This document shows, piece by piece, positions 20,781 to 31,180 of a stretch of DNA of 32,991 bases; the stretch's first letter is position 1, and every line of letters begins with the position of its first letter. A model generated the notes under the pieces. It did not search any database. It was given only the letters and a program-made list of their open reading frames with translations, and was not told where the DNA came from. Source of the DNA: a virus; IMG/VR virus record IMGVR_UViG_3300020436_001424, positions 1-32,991 of that record; one strand, written 5' to 3'. A program made the position numbers and the translations under genes.

Positions 20781-20976
20781 ATTTCCACCAGGTACAATCC
20801 TTTATATACTTTGCTATTTCATCATCTTTATCAAAATATACGCATAGGAGGGCGATAGCGAGGCCTACACCGATTAATCCTTGCATAAACGGACTATGTA
20901 AGATAAGAAACCAAAGTACATCTAAACCGTTGCCTCCGTCTACTAATATCCAATCTATTTCTTCTTCTATGTTCAT
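20776..20976 (-). CDS. Small single-pass membrane protein, last gene of the bilin cassette
   Basis: 66 residues, acidic N-terminus (MNIEEEIDWILVDGG), a hydrophobic stretch from about 20 to 48 (VLWFLILHSPF to IALLCVYF) that can form one or two membrane helices, and a charged tail ending CTWWKL. Not recognised. The start overlaps the hemA stop (ATGA), so it is translated with the cassette. It may tether a cassette enzyme or act on the envelope; both are guesses. Could instead be a late lysis-type or structural micro-protein. Confidence 0.6.
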   Translation of the reverse strand: MNIEEEIDWILVDGGNGLDVLWFLILHSPFMQGLIGVGLAIALLCVYFDKDDEIAKYIKDCTWWKL

Positions 20977-22166
20977 TTCTTTTTACCACACCTTTTTAGT
21001 GCTGATTTTAATTTAACGACCATATCAAATATATGAGCGTCTGTATGAAAAGGTGTTGGTGTAAATCTTAATCTTTCTGTTCCTCTTTTAACCGTAGGCC
21101 AGTTAATAGGTTGTACATAGATACCTTCTTTGTAAAGTAATTCATCTGATACTGCTTTACATTTGATAGGATCACCTATGATAACAGGAACAATATGACT
21201 ATCGTTTTTTAAAACTTCTATACCTTGTCTTTCAATCTCTTCTTTTGTTTTTCTTGCTCGTTCTTGTATCTTTTCTCTTAATTCAGGATGGTCTTTAACA
21301 TACTTAATACTAGTTAACGCCCCAGCACATATTACTGGCGATAAACTAGTTGTAAATATAAACGCACTTGCCATACTTCTGATTGCGTCTATAAACTCTC
21401 TCTTTCCTGTAATGTACCCACCTTGTACACCATAGGCTTTTGCTAGCGTTCCGTTTATAATGTCAACTTCAACTTTGTCTCTTTCACAAATACCAGCACC
21501 TGTTTCACCATATAAACCAACAGCGTGTACTTCATCAATATAAGTTATTGCATTATATTTTTTACTTACTTCAATAATTTCTTTTACAGGTGCAATATCA
21601 CCGTCCATAGAATATACACTTTCAAATACAACACATTTAGGTCCTGGGTTAGACATTAATATACTTTCTAAATCTTGTACATCATTATGTTTAAATATTT
21701 CTTTTCTACATTTACTATGCCTTAATCCTTGTATGATTGAAGAGTGATTTTCTTCGTCTGATATAAACAATAAGTCAGGTATAATCTTACCCATTGTTTC
21801 TAAAGTTGTTTGATTAGCGTTATACGCTGAAGTAAATAATAAAGCACTTTCTTTCTTATGTAATAATGCAAGTTCTCTTTCTAACGCATTATGATAATGT
21901 GTTGTGCCTGATATATTTCTAGTTCCACCTGCACCTGCACCAGCAGTTTCAAGTGCTGTTTTCATACTATCAATTACATATGAGTGTTGACCCATACCTA
22001 AATAGTCGTTTGAACACCAGTTAACTATATTTTTGATTGAGTATTTTGAATACCATATGGCATTAGGATAATCGCCACGCTTACGAATAATGTCGTTAAA
22101 TGTTCTATAACGACCATCATCTTTATAGTCTTTTATTACTTGTTGAAATTTGTCTAAATGTTCCAT
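20973..22166 (-). CDS. hemA: 5-aminolevulinate synthase (C4 pathway)
   Basis: PLP enzyme joining glycine and succinyl-CoA to make 5-aminolevulinate, the first tetrapyrrole precursor. 397 residues from the ATG at 22166, which overlaps the bilin reductase stop (TAATG); the extra 11 codons upstream are discarded. Signatures: WCSNDYLGMGQH (50-61), GGTRNISGT (80-88), DEVHAVGLYGETGAG (211-225) and GTLAKAYG with PLP lysine K243. GTLAKA and the NDYLGM form point to aminolevulinate synthase rather than the related KBL or BioF enzymes, and synthesis of a bilin precursor fits the cassette. Alphaproteobacteria use this route, cyanobacteria do not. Confidence 0.93.
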   Translation of the reverse strand: MEHLDKFQQVIKDYKDDGRYRTFNDIIRKRGDYPNAIWYSKYSIKNIVNWCSNDYLGMGQHSYVIDSMKTALETAGAGAGGTRNISGTTHYHNALERELALLHKKESALLFTSAYNANQTTLETMGKIIPDLLFISDEENHSSIIQGLRHSKCRKEIFKHNDVQDLESILMSNPGPKCVVFESVYSMDGDIAPVKEIIEVSKKYNAITYIDEVHAVGLYGETGAGICERDKVEVDIINGTLAKAYGVQGGYITGKREFIDAIRSMASAFIFTTSLSPVICAGALTSIKYVKDHPELREKIQERARKTKEEIERQGIEVLKNDSHIVPVIIGDPIKCKAVSDELLYKEGIYVQPINWPTVKRGTERLRFTPTPFHTDAHIFDMVVKLKSALKRCGKKK

Positions 22167-22897
22167 TATTCTGCATAAGGAAATAATGCGTCTGTACAAA
22201 ACTCTTCAATATCTTTTTCAGGTAATCCTAGTGCTTTCATTGTTCTAGGTGTATGAGGATTTTCTCTTTGAAATTTTGCGTATCTGTTTTGTGCTTCTTT
22301 TACTTCCTTCTCGCTTTTAATATTTGAATTTAAATTAAAATCTTGTTTATATCTTCTTAATAAAGTAAAGTAAGGTCCCAAATCAGTACACGCTAAACTT
22401 AATGCGTTTGTCAATTCTTTTTCTGTATTAATATTACCTGCGGCTATCATACCTGGACTAAAAATTTGTAATGCCCAATCAGGTAATTCTCTTACTTTTG
22501 ATGGTTCGTAAGTTTTACTTTCTTCACAAAACCATTCTACCATCGGATGGTCCATTTCTCTCTTGCCACTTAAAGGTGACCAATCGTGGAAAAAACCAGT
22601 AACCTTATTAGGTCCTGCGATAACATCTAAACCCCATATAGGTGCTGGTGTATGAAAATGAGGTATAACAACACAATGAAACATATAAAGTTTTTTACTT
22701 TCTCTAGCGTCAACTACATCTATATGACATCTTCTTGCTTCAGGTGTTTCCCAAACTCTATTAATCCAACCATCTTCAGGTCTATTAAATTTTGCCATAC
22801 TTTCTTCAACAATCTCTTTACCTTCGTCATCAAATTTTGACATAAGATTTTTAGTTGCGTCTTCTAACATTTCCCATATTCTACTTCGTTGTGCCAT
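22166..22897 (-). CDS. pcyX: Ferredoxin-dependent bilin reductase, PcyX/PebS type
   Basis: Reduces biliverdin with electrons from ferredoxin. 243 residues starting MAQRSRIWEML at 22897, with AGAGG upstream; the longer frame to 22993 runs inside the haem oxygenase gene and is rejected. Family features: RRCHIDVVDARE (56-66), IWGLDVIAG with the conserved catalytic aspartate D91, FFHDWSPL (102-109), and the C-terminal NPHTPRTMKALGLPE. PcyX enzymes, described from uncultured ocean phages, are related to PcyA but make phycoerythrobilin. PebS or PcyA activity cannot be excluded from sequence alone. Overlaps the haem oxygenase end by 17 bases and hemA by one. Confidence 0.85.
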   Translation of the reverse strand: MAQRSRIWEMLEDATKNLMSKFDDEGKEIVEESMAKFNRPEDGWINRVWETPEARRCHIDVVDARESKKLYMFHCVVIPHFHTPAPIWGLDVIAGPNKVTGFFHDWSPLSGKREMDHPMVEWFCEESKTYEPSKVRELPDWALQIFSPGMIAAGNINTEKELTNALSLACTDLGPYFTLLRRYKQDFNLNSNIKSEKEVKEAQNRYAKFQRENPHTPRTMKALGLPEKDIEEFCTDALFPYAE

Positions 22898-23540
22898 CAC
22901 CAAACCTCTTTTCGTTATTCTTAATAAATTGCAACATTTCTTTAAATAAGTCAGTTGCAAAACCAAAACATTGTCTTGCTTCATAGACAACATTATTTAC
23001 ATTTTTATCTTTATCGCTAGCGTCATTATAAACATAATGACTATCTACTGCTAATCTTAATGCTTCTTTAATCTCGTTTGTATCTTTATATGTGATACCG
23101 TGTTCTGGATTTTTGTTAAATTTAAATTCATAATACTTACCAAGACCAGGTACTTTTCTTTTTATCATTTGACCACCTGATAAATCGCCCATATGTCTAA
23201 CATAGATATGTGCCATTATTTTTTCAGGACAATCCATTAATTCTTTATTTGCATAATCAACATACTTTCTTGTACTCTCCATCATCATAGGTTGATGAGC
23301 ATAAGTCCACAACTCATCAAAATCTGCTTTGATAGCAGGTGCTCTTCTAATAAAAGGAAACTTATCTAATAAACCTTCTGCCATTGCAAGAGGTTCAAGT
23401 ATATTATAACATTGGTGTTGATTGAAAAGATAATTTGCGTATACTTCAGGATGTATTTTACCAGACATTAATATCTTAACGAACCCTTGTCTTTCTGCTT
23501 CTTTGTGGTGTTCCCAAGTGAGTTCTTTAAGAGTTTTCAT
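22881..23540 (-). CDS. ho1: Haem oxygenase
   Basis: Opens haem to biliverdin IX-alpha, CO and iron; supplies the substrate of the bilin reductase encoded next. 219 residues, usual for bacterial and phage enzymes. Proximal haem ligand H12 in the HKEAE motif, the YLFNQHQCYNILE helix, and the distal glycine-rich helix YVRHMGDLSGGQ are all intact, so it should be active. Overlaps the stop of the paralogue upstream by 14 bases and the reductase start downstream by 17, so the three are co-translated. AAGGAT lies before the start. Confidence 0.94.
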   Translation of the reverse strand: MKTLKELTWEHHKEAERQGFVKILMSGKIHPEVYANYLFNQHQCYNILEPLAMAEGLLDKFPFIRRAPAIKADFDELWTYAHQPMMMESTRKYVDYANKELMDCPEKIMAHIYVRHMGDLSGGQMIKRKVPGLGKYYEFKFNKNPEHGITYKDTNEIKEALRLAVDSHYVYNDASDKDKNVNNVVYEARQCFGFATDLFKEMLQFIKNNEKRFGDGTTK

Positions 23541-24336
23541 TGATAGGTAATCCTTGTTCTTCTTTCTTTTTCTTTTCGTCTAAATCATCTTGTACATATT
23601 TTTTTAAATCTTCAGGTACATCTTCAATCTTCATAGTTTTAATATGTACAGCGTTTGCCATAAGACCTGCTCTTACCATTAGGTCTTCTGTTTCATCTTT
23701 GTTACCATCTGCTACATTGTTTGTACCAGATTTATCTTTTGACATTTCTTTTACAGCAACAGCAAACATATCTACTTTAGGTTTTATTTCTTGCCAATAT
23801 TCTTCGTGTGCTTCTAAATCACCTAATAGTTGGTGTCTGTACTGCCAAGATATTTTAACTTCTTCAAGTACTTCTTCTCTTCTTTCACTATCATATGCTT
23901 TTTTAAATTCTTTTTCTATGTCTTCTACTAATACAGAAGACTTTAGATTTCTATGTATCTCACTCATCAATGCCCATAAGTGTGCAAGTATCTTTTCTCT
24001 ATCTTCTTTAATACTATGTAAATGTTCTATGTAAGATTGACAAGCATACATCACAGCAGGTTGAACATACTTGCCTTTTTCTTCTATACCATTTAAAGGC
24101 CAGTTTTTCTGATACTCTTCTCTAATAAGAGTGCCAACATATATTGGGTCTTTGTCTTTTGTGAGTTTGAGATTGTGTGCGTGAAATTCAGTAGAGGTTA
24201 TGATATTTGCCTGATTAAACAGGAAAGTACCTACAACCTCTATGTAATCTAATTTCTTATCTTTATATCTTTCGTAGAAAGGATGATTTTCGTATCTAGT
24301 TCTTGCTTTGTCAACAAATTCAATAACTTGTTCCAT
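23527..24336 (-). CDS. Haem-oxygenase-like paralogue without the haem-binding motifs
   Basis: 269 residues starting MEQVIEFVDKARTRY at 24336, where TTGGAG is well spaced; a GTG two codons earlier is adjacent to that site and less likely. The FLFNQ helix lines up with YLFNQ of the haem oxygenase next door, and LAHLWALMSEIHRN with its distal helix, so an HO-like helical fold is likely. But the proximal histidine position appears to be arginine (R12) and the GDLSGG motif is absent, replaced by SEIHRNLKSS. Many H and E residues in helices could instead bind metals, as in HO-like di-iron enzymes. The last ~75 residues are charged and probably extended. Function unknown. Confidence 0.7.
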   Translation of the reverse strand: MEQVIEFVDKARTRYENHPFYERYKDKKLDYIEVVGTFLFNQANIITSTEFHAHNLKLTKDKDPIYVGTLIREEYQKNWPLNGIEEKGKYVQPAVMYACQSYIEHLHSIKEDREKILAHLWALMSEIHRNLKSSVLVEDIEKEFKKAYDSERREEVLEEVKISWQYRHQLLGDLEAHEEYWQEIKPKVDMFAVAVKEMSKDKSGTNNVADGNKDETEDLMVRAGLMANAVHIKTMKIEDVPEDLKKYVQDDLDEKKKKEEQGLPINENS

Positions 24337-24383
24337 TTTCACTCCAATTGTTAATATAGTGACCTATCGGTCTATAATGTAAT

Positions 24384-24391
24384 TATTTATA
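24384..24391 (-). promoter_or_regulatory. T4-type late promoter for the bilin cassette
   Basis: TATAAATA on the minus strand, directly after the stop of the RCC1-repeat gene. The predicted leader of about 40 bases carries TTGGAG. It is the only promoter seen for the five-gene cassette. Confidence 0.75.
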
Positions 24392-26596
24392 TTAGTCTCT
24401 AGGACCCAAGTGGAAGAAGTTGGACTCTTGGTTAGAGTTCGCACCTTCTCCATAAAAGTCGTGTTGATATGTAGCAGAAGAACCACCATCATATCCAGTC
24501 CAATATAACTGGCCTCTTTGGTTCAATGCAGCTGGCATTGAAGAGTTTCCAGATTGACCACCTATAAACAAGTCTGTCCATCTATGACCACCAGAAGGTT
24601 GGAATACAATTCTCTTTCTAACTCTAAAGTTCTCGTTGTCTTCCATAGCACCTTGGAAAGAGTTTCTTCCACCATTTGTCCATTGGTCATCATTTTGAGA
24701 AGTTCCACCAAGACCTTGGTCATCATTATTACCACCTCCCCAAATCTTGCCGTTGTCGTCAAGTATCATAGGTGAGTGATATTGATAATAAGGTGATGAA
24801 CCTTGCATCCTATCTTGTCCTATATCACATACATTAACAGGCCATTTAGGTCCTTTAATGTGTATAAATGTTCCTGGCATTCCACCAGAGTGATAGTAGT
24901 ATCCGTTGGATTCAACTGATTGACCTCGGTTACCATATGTATGATGGTTACCATCGTGGTTCCATAACATACCTGTTGATTTCTGTCTAAACATAAACCA
25001 TTTTTGTTCGTCACCACCACACCAGAAGTAGTCTACATCACCATTGTGAGCAAAACTCATCCGTCTCCAAGAACCTAAATATTGAGTTCCTGTATAACCT
25101 GGTGACCCGAAAGGTACTGAACCTGAAGTCGTGTAACCTGTGAACCACATAAATCCTTCACCGTCTAGTATGAAAGAAGCGTGATGGCTACCATTTGACC
25201 AAGTGTGTTTTAATAACTTAATTCCACCATATCTGTTAAAGTCAATACCTACTCTTGTTGGTTTCGTATAGTAGTAAGTTCCGTTATAGTTACCTACACC
25301 AAGTTCACCGTGTTGGTTATGACCCCAAGCCCATAAGTGACCTGCTTCGTCTAATGCGTGAGTCCAAGCCTCTTCTGAACCTGACCAGTAAACATCAACA
25401 ATCATACGGCCATCAAAATAAGATTGTGGTAATCTTACAGGTCTGGTTACATTACCAGAATAGAAAGCAGTTGAAGTTGGTCCACCAGTAGTGTCCGTTG
25501 AGTTGTTAATTGATGGGTTACCTAAACCAAGTTGACCGTTGTTATTGTAACCCCATACCCATACTGAACCGTCATCACCTAACGCCCACATTGAAGAGGT
25601 ACCGCTATTTTTGTGCATATCAGACATACCAATTTTTACAATTTTAGTCTGATTGAAAGTTTTAGTTATGTTGTTACCTTGCCAGTCAGTAGTGTCATTT
25701 GCAGTTACCCTAACCGTGTATTGTCTATCAGTAGTTTCTGAATTTCCTAATCCGTAGTTACCATTTTCACCAGAAGCATATACTTCACCATTATCCATTA
25801 ACCAATATGTTCTATTGTAAGTACCAACTACTTGTATAATTCTAGGTGCTCTACCGTGATGAGTAGTCATACGACCTGTACCAGATAAGTTCCAAGTTCT
25901 ATTATCAGTAGATTGCATCCAGTTTGTAAATGTGAAACCTGTTGACATAAACTTCGCAGTTTCAACATTACCTGCAACACCATCACCTAAACCAGAACAA
26001 GAGGTACTTTCACCAGCACCATACCACATATCAGAACCGTCTGAACATAATACGCAAGTTCTATAATTCATAGAAGCGTCATCACCGTGGTTACTTCCTA
26101 AGTTGTATCTCCAGCCTAACGGAGCTCTGTTTACGAAAGATACTACTTCGTTTCTAGTACACCATTTGTTTTCGTTTATGTAAATTAGTTCCCAATACTT
26201 TGATGGACTTCCATCGTGTTCTTCTACCCAAGTGTTTTGATATCTAGTTCTTTTTAGACATAGATAAATTTTGTCAGCAACCTTAACCATTTCGCCTCTT
26301 TCATATTGTCTCCAATATTGCCAAGTTTCAATGTTATCGTTACCTGCAAGTAATAGTGTCCAGTATCTTTGATTATCTGGTCTATAACTTCTCTTAACAA
26401 TTGTAGGTGCGTAATGCGTATAAGAAGATGTATTGGTCATTGATTCCGAAGATATAGTAAAGCTGTTTTCAGGTGTATCTTCAATACATCTGTACGATTT
26501 ACCTCTCCAGTAAACTACATCATTTCTTTTGTAGCTTGTCTTATCTTTCCAAGTACCTCTCCAGGTTACTTTGAAATTTTTAATATCTAATGCCAT
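24392..26596 (-). CDS. RCC1-repeat (beta-propeller) fibre-like protein 1
   Basis: 734 residues. N-terminal 1-45 is a small aromatic module (TWRGTWKDKTSYKRNDVVYW), resembling carbohydrate-binding CBM5/12-like modules, followed by a second similar stretch near 95-115. The rest holds RCC1 repeats, for example VWVWGYNNNGQLGLGN, LWAWGHNQHGELGVGN, VYASGENGNYGLGN and IWGGGNNDDQGLGG; about seven blades can be counted. Probably a receptor-binding tail or baseplate fibre. AGGAAAAAG precedes the ATG; no late promoter in the 22-base gap, so it likely reads through from the small gene upstream. Confidence 0.75.
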   Translation of the reverse strand: MALDIKNFKVTWRGTWKDKTSYKRNDVVYWRGKSYRCIEDTPENSFTISSESMTNTSSYTHYAPTIVKRSYRPDNQRYWTLLLAGNDNIETWQYWRQYERGEMVKVADKIYLCLKRTRYQNTWVEEHDGSPSKYWELIYINENKWCTRNEVVSFVNRAPLGWRYNLGSNHGDDASMNYRTCVLCSDGSDMWYGAGESTSCSGLGDGVAGNVETAKFMSTGFTFTNWMQSTDNRTWNLSGTGRMTTHHGRAPRIIQVVGTYNRTYWLMDNGEVYASGENGNYGLGNSETTDRQYTVRVTANDTTDWQGNNITKTFNQTKIVKIGMSDMHKNSGTSSMWALGDDGSVWVWGYNNNGQLGLGNPSINNSTDTTGGPTSTAFYSGNVTRPVRLPQSYFDGRMIVDVYWSGSEEAWTHALDEAGHLWAWGHNQHGELGVGNYNGTYYYTKPTRVGIDFNRYGGIKLLKHTWSNGSHHASFILDGEGFMWFTGYTTSGSVPFGSPGYTGTQYLGSWRRMSFAHNGDVDYFWCGGDEQKWFMFRQKSTGMLWNHDGNHHTYGNRGQSVESNGYYYHSGGMPGTFIHIKGPKWPVNVCDIGQDRMQGSSPYYQYHSPMILDDNGKIWGGGNNDDQGLGGTSQNDDQWTNGGRNSFQGAMEDNENFRVRKRIVFQPSGGHRWTDLFIGGQSGNSSMPAALNQRGQLYWTGYDGGSSATYQHDFYGEGANSNQESNFFHLGPRD

Positions 26597-27052: not shown

Positions 27053-30000
27053 TTATCTACCAATACCAGCATTCCACATCATTGCTCTTCCTGTACTTGA
27101 CCAAGTTGCAGTAGCGTGGTGACCCAAGTTATTGTTATTTGAGTAACCCCAAAGTAATACTTGTCCGTCATCTGTTCCCACCATCATTTGCGGTGAGTAG
27201 TAGTTTGATGAATTATCAGTACCTTTAGCGTACATAGTTCTAATTCTAGTTCCAGCAGGAATGTAAGTATGGAACGGTTTATAAGTTCCATCTTCACCAG
27301 TCCAACTAGTTCCAGCGATTGGATTTGCGAGACCACTATAACTATTGTAACCTTGAGCAAAAAACTCTCCGTTATCTTGTAGCATATAAAGTCTTGCTAT
27401 ATCTCCAGAAGAACCTACGATTGATACTTCTTTCAAATTGTTAACTTTGTCAACTTGTACAGGTGCCTGGTTAGTTCCAGTACCACCATCTCCTGATACA
27501 TAATAACTACCAGAGTGACCAGCAGTCCAAGTTTGACCATTTTTCAATCTCATAAATGTCGTGTGGTAACCATTCCAGAATAATGTCCAGAAGTCTACGA
27601 TATCTTCGTTAGGCGTAGCAGTTGATTGTGTTAACTGATTTCTGTTTGTTGTAGAGTTATCTACAAAGTTACCATATCCATTGTAACCTGTTGCCCAAAT
27701 ATATCCGTTACCATCTAGTACCGAGAAGTTTGAGTTTGATGAGTGAGAATTACATTGCCATACAGCGATACCACCGTTATCAGCAGCATTGAAACCAGAC
27801 ATCTTAACAGGTCTGTATTTGTCCGTTGTAGTTGTATCACCTAATTGACCAACATTGTTTCTACCCCAACCGTAAATATTATCTTCACTTGTTCTTACAT
27901 AGAAACTTGTACTATCACCACCTGAGCAAGTAATATCTACAATCTTCTCGTCATTAAACCATTCTCTTGGTATTCTTTTTGGTCCGTAGCAGTTTTGCGT
28001 TCTACCATCACCACACTCTCCATATCCATTGTAACCCCATACCCATACATCACCATTGTCATCTAAAAATGCAGGTGTGTGAGTACTATCTTCATTACCG
28101 TGTTTTTGTGCTAGTTTAACAGCAAATACATCTTCAAGTCCAGCAGGCGACATTGCCATACCAGGTGAACCATCATAACCAGTTCCTTGTTGACCGTGTG
28201 AACCGTATCCTGTGTGGAATACTTGTCCGTTATCAAATAAAATTAATTTGAAACCGTAACCTTCTTCAATCTGTATACATCTAGGTGTTCTTTGTCTATC
28301 GTATCTAGTCCACTTACCACTTCTTCTTTCTTCATAACCACCTTCGTTTCTGTTTTCAGAATTGTAGAAATCTCTCCATCTAAATGTCATTTCTCTAAAG
28401 TAAGAAGATGAACGACCTTGTTCACCATTTGAAGAGTTAGTACCGTGTCCTAATGTCCATATAGCACCATTTTTATCAATATAAGTATTGCTTCTGTATA
28501 CACAAGCAAATTCAGAATTACCGTGTTTGTATGGCCAGTTCATTGGTCCTCTATTCGGGAACCAAACACCAGCACATTGTTCTTGCGAGTTCATACCTGC
28601 AAACGATTCCCAGCAGTTGTGATACGATTGAATATGAGCAGGATAGTTCTTACCTGTTTCATTGTTTTGTTCGTGTTCACTTCTACCAGTTAATCTACCA
28701 CTTGTAGTTGTAGTTTTCGTCATCATAGGTGACCTTGTTGGTTCTTGGAAACCATATTGAGGTGGTCTACCTTTGTTATCTCTTAATGCACGATATAAAC
28801 CAGTACCCATAAAGTAATGTTTTTCGCCAGTTGATATTCGTTTAAACTCTTTGTATGATACAACATCATTGTAGTTGTAGTGTGTATTTGGAGAATACTC
28901 ACCTCTAAATCTTAAAGATGATTGTATCTTATCCCAATGTTTATGACCTCTCCAAGTTTTCTCAATTGTCCAACCTAGTGAGTTATACATTCCACTAGTA
29001 GCTCTGTTTGAAGTTGTAGGTTCTAAACAGAAAGGATAGATGATTGTATTTGTACTTCTCTCATAATCGTTTTGAGCATAAGGTACTAAAATCTCAACCG
29101 TTCTACTTTCTTTGTTTACGAAATTGTAACCACTTTCAAATCCAAGTGTTTTACCATTTCTCATTTTCTTAGGATAGTTTCTATTGTAGTCTCTATCAGC
29201 ATTGAAGAAACTATCAATGTAAGTATTTTCGTCTACTTGTCTATTGTTTAAGTAGTATTTAACCCAACCGTTCTTACCATAACCTCTCCATTTTTTAATG
29301 TTTGTAGGTGCGTAAGTTCTTGCCTGGTTATTTGCCATATCATAAGTTTCAACTGATTTAGAATTGTACATACCAGCGTGTGCTTTACAATAAATGTAAA
29401 GTTTAGCAGTTGCTTTTCTAACATTGATTTTAGTATGAGCACCAGGATTACCAGGAGTACCAACATAAGTTACCCCAGCAGTTAATTCACTACCACCTCC
29501 GTGTGTTCCATCAGCAGTTGTTGAAAATGCTAATGTATGTCCAGAGTTAGTTGAATTAGATTGGTCAAATAAATAAGTTTTTCCTTCTTCAAATTTAACT
29601 ACATTATCAGCAGCTAAAACACCGTCAACATAGAATTTGTTTCCACTACCTGGGTTTGAAACAGATATTTGGAAAGTTCTTTCTGTATTTTCAGTTGGAT
29701 CAGTTGTGTCAGGCATATACAACTCTATTAATCCTTCATTTGAAGTTGGTGAAGAACCTAAAGCGTTAGAGTGTGAAGTACCTGTTTTGTCAACAGCAGT
29801 AAAGTTACCTGTAATACCACCAACACTTGTTGTTGTGGATTCAGCAACTAATTGATAAACTGGTTTACCATTTACTAATAAGATTTTCTTACCAGCAGCT
29901 GCGTGTTCAGATGGAGCAGGAGTTCCTGCAGCCACAAAGTTATCTCTTCCTTGAGTAATTGTAGCAGTAATATTAGCGCCAACTTTTAATGCACCTTGAA

Positions 30001-31180
30001 TATAAACTGGTGCAACCGTTGAACCTGTTTCTGTTGGATATTCAGCACTATCAGCAGAAGAAACATAAATTGTTCTTCTAGTTGAAACTGAAGCACCAGC
30101 ACCAGCAGTACCTGCCCAAGCATTTGTAACCTGTAAGTAAGTATTATTACTTGCGTCTGTTAAAAGTGAAACAATGGTATCTTTTAATTGATTACCAGAA
30201 GAATCCAACATACCTTTTAATGATGGACTTGCTTCTGTTTCCCAACCAGGTACATCACCTTGATTGAAAGTAACCTTTCTACTAGAACCAGCACCACCTC
30301 TTCTTGTATCTTCAGCGTTTGCAGCTTCTTCATCTTTATACATTGGGAAGAAGAAACCATTATCGCCGTTTGAAGCAGTACCTTTAACATAGTAAGGACC
30401 TCTAGGATCTTCTCCTAATGACTTACCTGTGTTATTCGTATTGTGAATACCATCAGCAGTATAAGAGAAACCTAATGGGTAATACTTGTTAGAGTTGTTG
30501 TGTTGATGAAATCTGTATGTATGACCTTCTTTGAAAAACTCCCAGTTCTTATAACCAGCAAATTGTCTACCTTTAGTATTGTGTCCCATACGATTGTCAA
30601 TTTTGAAATCTGGCACACCACCTGAAACTTGTACACTAACTACAAAGTTGTTGTCAGTTGGTACATAGTGGTATCTAAAGTAATTTTGTTCGTAACCGTT
30701 AAAGCTATCTAATTCAGAATAGTCGTCTTCTGTCATTTGGAACATTTCGTCATACTCTTCAAATAGGTGTTTTTGATGGCGAACAATTGAACCCATTGAA
30801 GCGTCTATTGTAGAGTGGTGAGCGTGTATTGCTTCGTGCTCATTTGAGAAATTAGTAGAGTGTTTAGTAATAGGGTTACCATCCATATCTGTTCTTTGTT
30901 TCTCGTCACCTCTTTCGTTTTCAGTCCAGTATTGTGTGTAACCGAAAAAGTCTGTATTTGTGAAATTAGGGTCGTTAATCCAACCATTCATTTCTTTAGG
31001 ATTATATCCAAATATTTTTGTTCCTGGAGCAAACGCATTTGTACCATCAGGCATATATTCATTTGTAAGAATCCACATAGCATTATTGTGATATACTATG
31101 TCGTCTCTTCTATATGACTGGTTCTTGTCGTATTCTCCTTGGAATTGTAATTTAATTCTTCCAAGATTTATTTTTGCCAT
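27053..31180 (-). CDS. Large RCC1-repeat fibre protein 2 with cupredoxin-like domains
   Basis: 1375 residues. Order: N-terminal aromatic module (LQFQGEYDKNQSYRRDDIVY, 11-30); a cupredoxin-like region near 170-285 that has lost its ligands; a serine/glycine/threonine-rich beta region; a second cupredoxin-like region near 500-605 keeping GHTLAF and YCKAHAGM, the H, C, H, M set of type 1 copper sites; another aromatic module (RFRGEYSPNTHYNYNDVV); then about eight RCC1 blades (VWVWGYNGYGECGDG, IYGWGRNNVGQLGD, IWATGYNGYGN and others). Probably a tail or baseplate fibre that binds the host surface. TAGGGA before the ATG; AATAAATA upstream. Confidence 0.75.
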   Translation of the reverse strand: MAKINLGRIKLQFQGEYDKNQSYRRDDIVYHNNAMWILTNEYMPDGTNAFAPGTKIFGYNPKEMNGWINDPNFTNTDFFGYTQYWTENERGDEKQRTDMDGNPITKHSTNFSNEHEAIHAHHSTIDASMGSIVRHQKHLFEEYDEMFQMTEDDYSELDSFNGYEQNYFRYHYVPTDNNFVVSVQVSGGVPDFKIDNRMGHNTKGRQFAGYKNWEFFKEGHTYRFHQHNNSNKYYPLGFSYTADGIHNTNNTGKSLGEDPRGPYYVKGTASNGDNGFFFPMYKDEEAANAEDTRRGGAGSSRKVTFNQGDVPGWETEASPSLKGMLDSSGNQLKDTIVSLLTDASNNTYLQVTNAWAGTAGAGASVSTRRTIYVSSADSAEYPTETGSTVAPVYIQGALKVGANITATITQGRDNFVAAGTPAPSEHAAAGKKILLVNGKPVYQLVAESTTTSVGGITGNFTAVDKTGTSHSNALGSSPTSNEGLIELYMPDTTDPTENTERTFQISVSNPGSGNKFYVDGVLAADNVVKFEEGKTYLFDQSNSTNSGHTLAFSTTADGTHGGGSELTAGVTYVGTPGNPGAHTKINVRKATAKLYIYCKAHAGMYNSKSVETYDMANNQARTYAPTNIKKWRGYGKNGWVKYYLNNRQVDENTYIDSFFNADRDYNRNYPKKMRNGKTLGFESGYNFVNKESRTVEILVPYAQNDYERSTNTIIYPFCLEPTTSNRATSGMYNSLGWTIEKTWRGHKHWDKIQSSLRFRGEYSPNTHYNYNDVVSYKEFKRISTGEKHYFMGTGLYRALRDNKGRPPQYGFQEPTRSPMMTKTTTTSGRLTGRSEHEQNNETGKNYPAHIQSYHNCWESFAGMNSQEQCAGVWFPNRGPMNWPYKHGNSEFACVYRSNTYIDKNGAIWTLGHGTNSSNGEQGRSSSYFREMTFRWRDFYNSENRNEGGYEERRSGKWTRYDRQRTPRCIQIEEGYGFKLILFDNGQVFHTGYGSHGQQGTGYDGSPGMAMSPAGLEDVFAVKLAQKHGNEDSTHTPAFLDDNGDVWVWGYNGYGECGDGRTQNCYGPKRIPREWFNDEKIVDITCSGGDSTSFYVRTSEDNIYGWGRNNVGQLGDTTTTDKYRPVKMSGFNAADNGGIAVWQCNSHSSNSNFSVLDGNGYIWATGYNGYGNFVDNSTTNRNQLTQSTATPNEDIVDFWTLFWNGYHTTFMRLKNGQTWTAGHSGSYYVSGDGGTGTNQAPVQVDKVNNLKEVSIVGSSGDIARLYMLQDNGEFFAQGYNSYSGLANPIAGTSWTGEDGTYKPFHTYIPAGTRIRTMYAKGTDNSSNYYSPQMMVGTDDGQVLLWGYSNNNNLGHHATATWSSTGRAMMWNAGIGR

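Follow-up and report, generated by a model that had tools for sequence, protein, structure and literature searches.

A gene directly before hemO in a marine phage haem cassette very likely encodes a haem oxygenase paralogue that has lost its haem site

Pseudo-haem oxygenases have been reported in several organisms, and little is known of what they do in the cell (PMC11634067). Arabidopsis HO2 has the haem oxygenase (HO) fold with arginine in place of the proximal histidine, and it shows no HO activity, while an active HO is present in the same organism (PMC11634067); it binds protoporphyrin IX strongly (PMC13316938). Plasmodium falciparum PfHO has a divergent HO fold without the histidine ligand and does not degrade haem (PMC11634067). 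The superfamily fold is also found in TenA and in the HO-like dimetal oxidases (HDOs) UndA, SznF and CADD, HDOs being defined by three histidine and three carboxylate ligands on the core helices (PMC13108848). Wegner et al. 2024 (PMC11480375) reported a hemO-pcyX-valaS cassette in marine phages; the text of their paper presents it as three genes and makes no mention of a gene in front of hemO.

The stretch of viral DNA analysed here (the window; 32,991 nt, IMG/VR record IMGVR_UViG_3300020436_001424) carries on its minus strand four tightly packed genes, X-hemO-pcyX-alaS, behind a conserved TATAAATA site. Gene X (23527-24336) encodes a protein of 269 aa. The ORF is real, with the ATG at 24336 as the family-wide start; the stop codon ends at 23527. 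It is followed by hemO (22881-23540; Pfam PF01126, E 1.1e-23), which encodes the long form of haem oxygenase (219 aa), and by the gene of a ferredoxin-dependent bilin reductase, pcyX (22166-22897; Pfam PF05996, E 2.3e-18), whose start was taken as ATG 22897 (MAQRSRIW...), overlapping hemO. The fourth gene (20973-22166; Aminotran_1_2, E 3.7e-66) lies directly after pcyX, with an assumed start at ATG 22166 (MEHLDKF...), and was identified as valaS (alaS), encoding 5-aminolevulinate synthase, by its position in the published cassette (PMC11480375). In the window the published three-gene cassette is thus preceded by a further gene. The four-gene block is flanked by large structural-region genes and by the gp13 gene, whose T4-type neck protein product has 83.6% identity with gp13 of Pelagibacter phage Mosig. 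Two large proteins with many repeated glycine-/tryptophan-rich segments are encoded upstream of X (24392-26596 and 27053-31180); by the look of the sequence, these repeats resemble RCC1-type propeller repeats.

The end of X overlaps the start of hemO by 14 nt in the window and by either 4 nt (ATGA) or 14 nt at the loci measured, an overlap typical of translational coupling. The TATAAATA site (24384-24391, minus strand) is located 48-55 nt upstream of X and corresponds to the T4-type late-promoter consensus. It is exact in 21 of the 25 loci with enough upstream sequence. The whole window contains seven exact copies, all on the coding strand, against 5.45 expected, which is no more than chance; the evidence therefore lies in the conserved position and not in the count. 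A small hairpin, GACC-GATA-GGTC (24361-24372, minus strand), is placed between this site and X. Its stem letters vary on both sides among loci with pairing kept, and single sequences fold no better than shuffles in most cases.

Neither X nor its family as a whole matched any Pfam, NCBIfam or PHROGs model at a curated cut-off. No family member reached PF01126 at E up to 10, and a search of PDB sequences with the family profile found no match. When the profile of X was compared with that of the pelagiphage HO family using hhalign, 166-167 columns were aligned with a score of 105 (P 1.8e-15), while the reversed HO profile scored 12.8 and 30 column shuffles scored 18.9 or less. Against a set of cyanophage and solved HOs, X scored 37.9 and pelagiphage HO 154. 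Sequence identity between X and HO is ~19%. X resembles pelagiphage HO in its NQ motif, in having a shorter central loop, and in an AH[IL]Y..H pattern; the FLFNQ helix that an earlier note on this DNA had recognized in both proteins is found at residues 38-42 of X and, as YLFNQ, at 37-41 of HO. That X is nearest to pelagiphage HO (105 vs 37.9) is consistent with a duplication within this lineage and a strong divergence afterwards.

An AlphaFold2 model of X obtained from 17 sequences had a mean pLDDT of 77.7 and a pTM of 0.65 (a first model, from four near-identical sequences, was poor, with pLDDT 43, and was set aside). In a Foldseek search with this model haem oxygenases came first, with probability 1.00 and an E-value of only ~3e-3. 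The best match in VIA-align 2 was a solved haem oxygenase (Z 16.6, 2.8 Å, 170 residues), and TenA chains reached Z 14, behind true haem oxygenases. X thus belongs to the HO family both by fold, as judged from this superposition, and by descent, as judged from the hhalign comparison with its controls. The earlier note had proposed the paralogy and called for structure prediction and superposition; both analyses agree with it, with solved HOs as the best matches. It had also named two observations that would speak against the proposal, a fold unrelated to HO and homologues keeping the proximal histidine: the predicted fold is that of a haem oxygenase, and no homologue has this histidine. It is highly probable that X is an HO paralogue whose haem site has been lost. 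The nearest relative by profile, with operon and fold in common, is the pelagiphage vHemO of the hemO-pcyX(-valaS) cassette (PMC11480375), from which X differs by an extra tail of ~70 residues and by the residues described below.

Alignment to solved HOs identifies His12 of HO as the proximal ligand. Arg12 of X aligns with it without gaps, and arginine occupies this position in all 17 distinct full-length X homologues, as histidine does in 22/22 sequences of the adjacent HO. The same 22 sequences keep G118, D119, G122 and G123, and the GDLSGG distal helix, present in all of them, is absent from every X; the earlier note had inferred both losses from the window. The hemO product of the window is intact (His12, Lys5, GDLSGG, Lys158, Arg162). 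For Lys5, Lys158 and Arg162, which are equated by alignment with the haem-propionate contacts Lys18, Lys179 and Arg183 of human HO-1, the alignment shows no counterpart in X. Of the features of an active haem oxygenase, X therefore shows neither the proximal histidine nor GDLSGG nor a match to PF01126. Because the proximal histidine, the distal helix and the propionate-contact Lys/Arg of vHemO are all lost, it is very unlikely, judging by the residues, that X binds haem in the usual mode or cleaves it.

The combination of an HO fold with a proximal His-to-Arg replacement, which defines an AtHO2-like pseudo-HO (PMC11634067), is found in X. By its described features, Arabidopsis HO2 is the closest precedent; the two share the fold, the arginine and the presence of an active HO in the same system; unlike X, HO2 is a plant chloroplast protein not encoded beside the active HO. 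Two solved structures of human HO-1 H25R are among the structural matches of X, one of which (5btq) has biliverdin bound, so an arginine at the proximal-histidine site is compatible with holding a bilin. In the collection of papers searched, none dealt with an H25R haem oxygenase with biliverdin.

The earlier note had also considered a changed function of the TenA-like or di-iron oxidase-like type, and had advised a check for a conserved metal set in homologues. X as an HDO, or as another TenA-type enzyme acting on a small molecule, would agree with the HO-like fold and with the invariant residues E50, E73, E126, D173 and H177, which include a D-x3-H spacing. However, the three-His signature of UndA, SznF and CADD was not found among the 17 homologues: H177 is the sole invariant histidine, H119 is replaced by Gln in 4/17, and H124 and H128 are replaced by Met in 3/17 and 7/17, respectively. 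TenA thiaminase requires a catalytic Cys. No Cys is conserved across the X family, and in the fold comparison TenA comes behind true haem oxygenases. With the ligand sets missing, the di-iron oxidase and TenA readings were rejected, and we regard an enzyme of this kind as highly improbable.

Besides the window, X was identified on 28 IMG/VR contigs, with 37-99% identity. The search for the gene pair in other marine phage contigs, advised in the earlier note, thus shows that the pair recurs. The X-bearing viruses are some viruses of SAR11-type ocean bacteria. A tblastn search with two X proteins gave no match in 50,697 phage records, and no relative of X was found in 84,980 bacterial and archaeal genomes with two short peptide patterns only, which distant homologues could escape. 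Among the HO loci recovered, X is located directly before hemO in 28 of the 28 that encode the long form (~219 aa). It occurs in none of the 13 with the short form (~188 aa) and is also absent from pelagiphage Mosig (0/14 together). The place directly before the active enzyme and first in the cassette, which had been noticed in the window, is kept in every related contig.

Other genes were seen before hemO in some phages without X. By sequence look, ClpS-like and small heat-shock-like genes lie directly before hemO in the short-form phages L034, L036 and L044, and L034 also has a DnaK-like gene before hemO. The annotation of Mosig (L047, 4152-8007) lists in this place an endonuclease V and a putative ferrochelatase along with several putative 2OG-Fe(II) oxygenases.

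Contigs L025-L028 lack alaS and encode a PcyX cut to 202 aa, with X and HO both intact; the genes compared are near-identical among the four, which may represent a single event. The PcyX of these contigs (e.g. L027:8626-9234) has GLSI where that of the window has GLDV, the Asp of which is the catalytic Asp of bilin reductases, and their bilin reductase may be inactive. Since X stays with HO without alaS and with a shortened PcyX, it follows HO and not the rest of the cassette. For the same reason, the role in bilin or haem handling suggested in the earlier note is weakened in its bilin or AlaS link in particular. A role of X tied to AlaS was rejected, as X is kept where alaS is absent. After removal of the gp13 signal, the distances of X gave partial correlations of 0.85 with HO, 0.90 with PcyX and 0.38 with AlaS; linkage alone could produce this pattern.

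These contigs also bear on the possibility that X is a tetrapyrrole-binding regulator or sink resembling Arabidopsis HO2, which would bind protoporphyrin IX or haem and tune haem supply without contacting HO. The inactivity of HO2 (PMC11634067), its strong binding of protoporphyrin IX (PMC13316938) and the fact that X usually shares a cassette with AlaS are in line with such a function. The retention of X beside HO in L025-L028 is not, and neither is the loss from X of the equivalents of the haem-propionate Lys/Arg, so that we consider a regulator or sink rather unlikely.

The X family has 47 invariant positions at 37-40% identity, its ORF is intact in every full-length copy, and dN/dS in the closest pairs is 0.11-0.47; X is under purifying selection. 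Its rate of evolution exceeds that of HO (mean p-distance 0.46 vs 0.27), with a somewhat higher median dN/dS (0.41 vs 0.30). Such differences might be expected if X were a decaying, functionless duplicate of hemO, but the intact ORFs, the invariant positions and dN/dS well below 1 oppose this explanation. It is largely refuted by the purifying selection and is barely credible.

The protein is composed of an HO-fold core (residues ~1-183, with Arg12 replacing the proximal histidine), a linker (~201-214) and a conserved helical tail (215-260). According to the aligned ranges of the structure match, the residues past ~183 are extra relative to the HO core. The long charged C-terminal tail mentioned in the earlier note is indeed present (~200-269); several of its residues are invariant, and across the homologue family it is conserved to the same degree as the core. 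Residues 234-254 (window ~23575-23637) show a weak likeness to the 34-aa CD1375 family in 12/17 homologues, with best E-values of 8.6e-4 and, for the tail alone, 4.4e-4, both below the curated cut-off; the best score, 20.0 bits against the NCBIfam cut-off of 22.5, does not place the X tail in CD1375. The same residues weakly match phrog_1382 in 9/17 homologues.

A tail conserved like the core, with its short stretch of CD1375 likeness, would suit a re-use of the HO fold outside tetrapyrroles, in gene expression or in a nucleic-acid or virion-linked role with the tail as the active part. X also lies behind a late-type promoter site and beside large genes of the structural region, and PfHO provides a precedent of a pseudo-HO with an unrelated role (PMC11634067), being an apicoplast protein needed for organelle gene expression; unlike X, PfHO is not paired with an active HO gene. 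The strict pairing of X is with hemO and not with its structural neighbours, and the neck-gene neighbourhood is the same in Mosig, which lacks X. We therefore judge a role outside tetrapyrroles to be unlikely.

The exclusive pairing with one HO form, together with the H25R/biliverdin structure, points to a pseudoenzyme partner, possibly product-holding, as the most likely role of X. According to this proposal, X would be a diverged duplicate of a pelagiphage-type HO that has kept the all-helical fold, has lost haem ligation and cleavage, and is retained to serve the long-form HO, translated from the same message, as a dedicated protein partner. It may bind HO through its fold or through the conserved C-terminal tail. 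Without an iron ligand, the vacated, haem-free pocket might hold a tetrapyrrole such as biliverdin or porphyrin, the simplest candidate being biliverdin on its way out of HO, and X could thereby modulate HO stability, turnover or product release.

We give an even chance to the proposal that X is a pseudo-HO and a protein partner to the long-form enzyme. The partner or scaffold function considered in the earlier note is favoured by the pairing, while the binding itself is something that we infer. The faster evolution of X than of HO counts against a partner, and both the pairing and the distance correlations could also be explained by gene adjacency and shared recombination history, without contact. 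The core of the phage long-form HO is typical of HOs in general, so the long form is not necessarily adapted to X. A stricter version of the proposal, in which the long-form phage HO has X as an obligate subunit and the Arg-lined pocket of X receives biliverdin, would make the two an enzyme-pseudoenzyme pair in tetrapyrrole catabolism; this version is possible but doubtful. If it is true, X would be the first pseudo-HO for which both a partner and a product-handling step are defined.

The cassette described here couples a pseudo-HO with its active paralogue in a phage operon that is small and expressible, in which partner and ligand are directly testable. In one of its branches, the phage haem cassette published with three genes has a constant fourth member, and this member bears on why phages of non-photosynthetic bacteria degrade haem.
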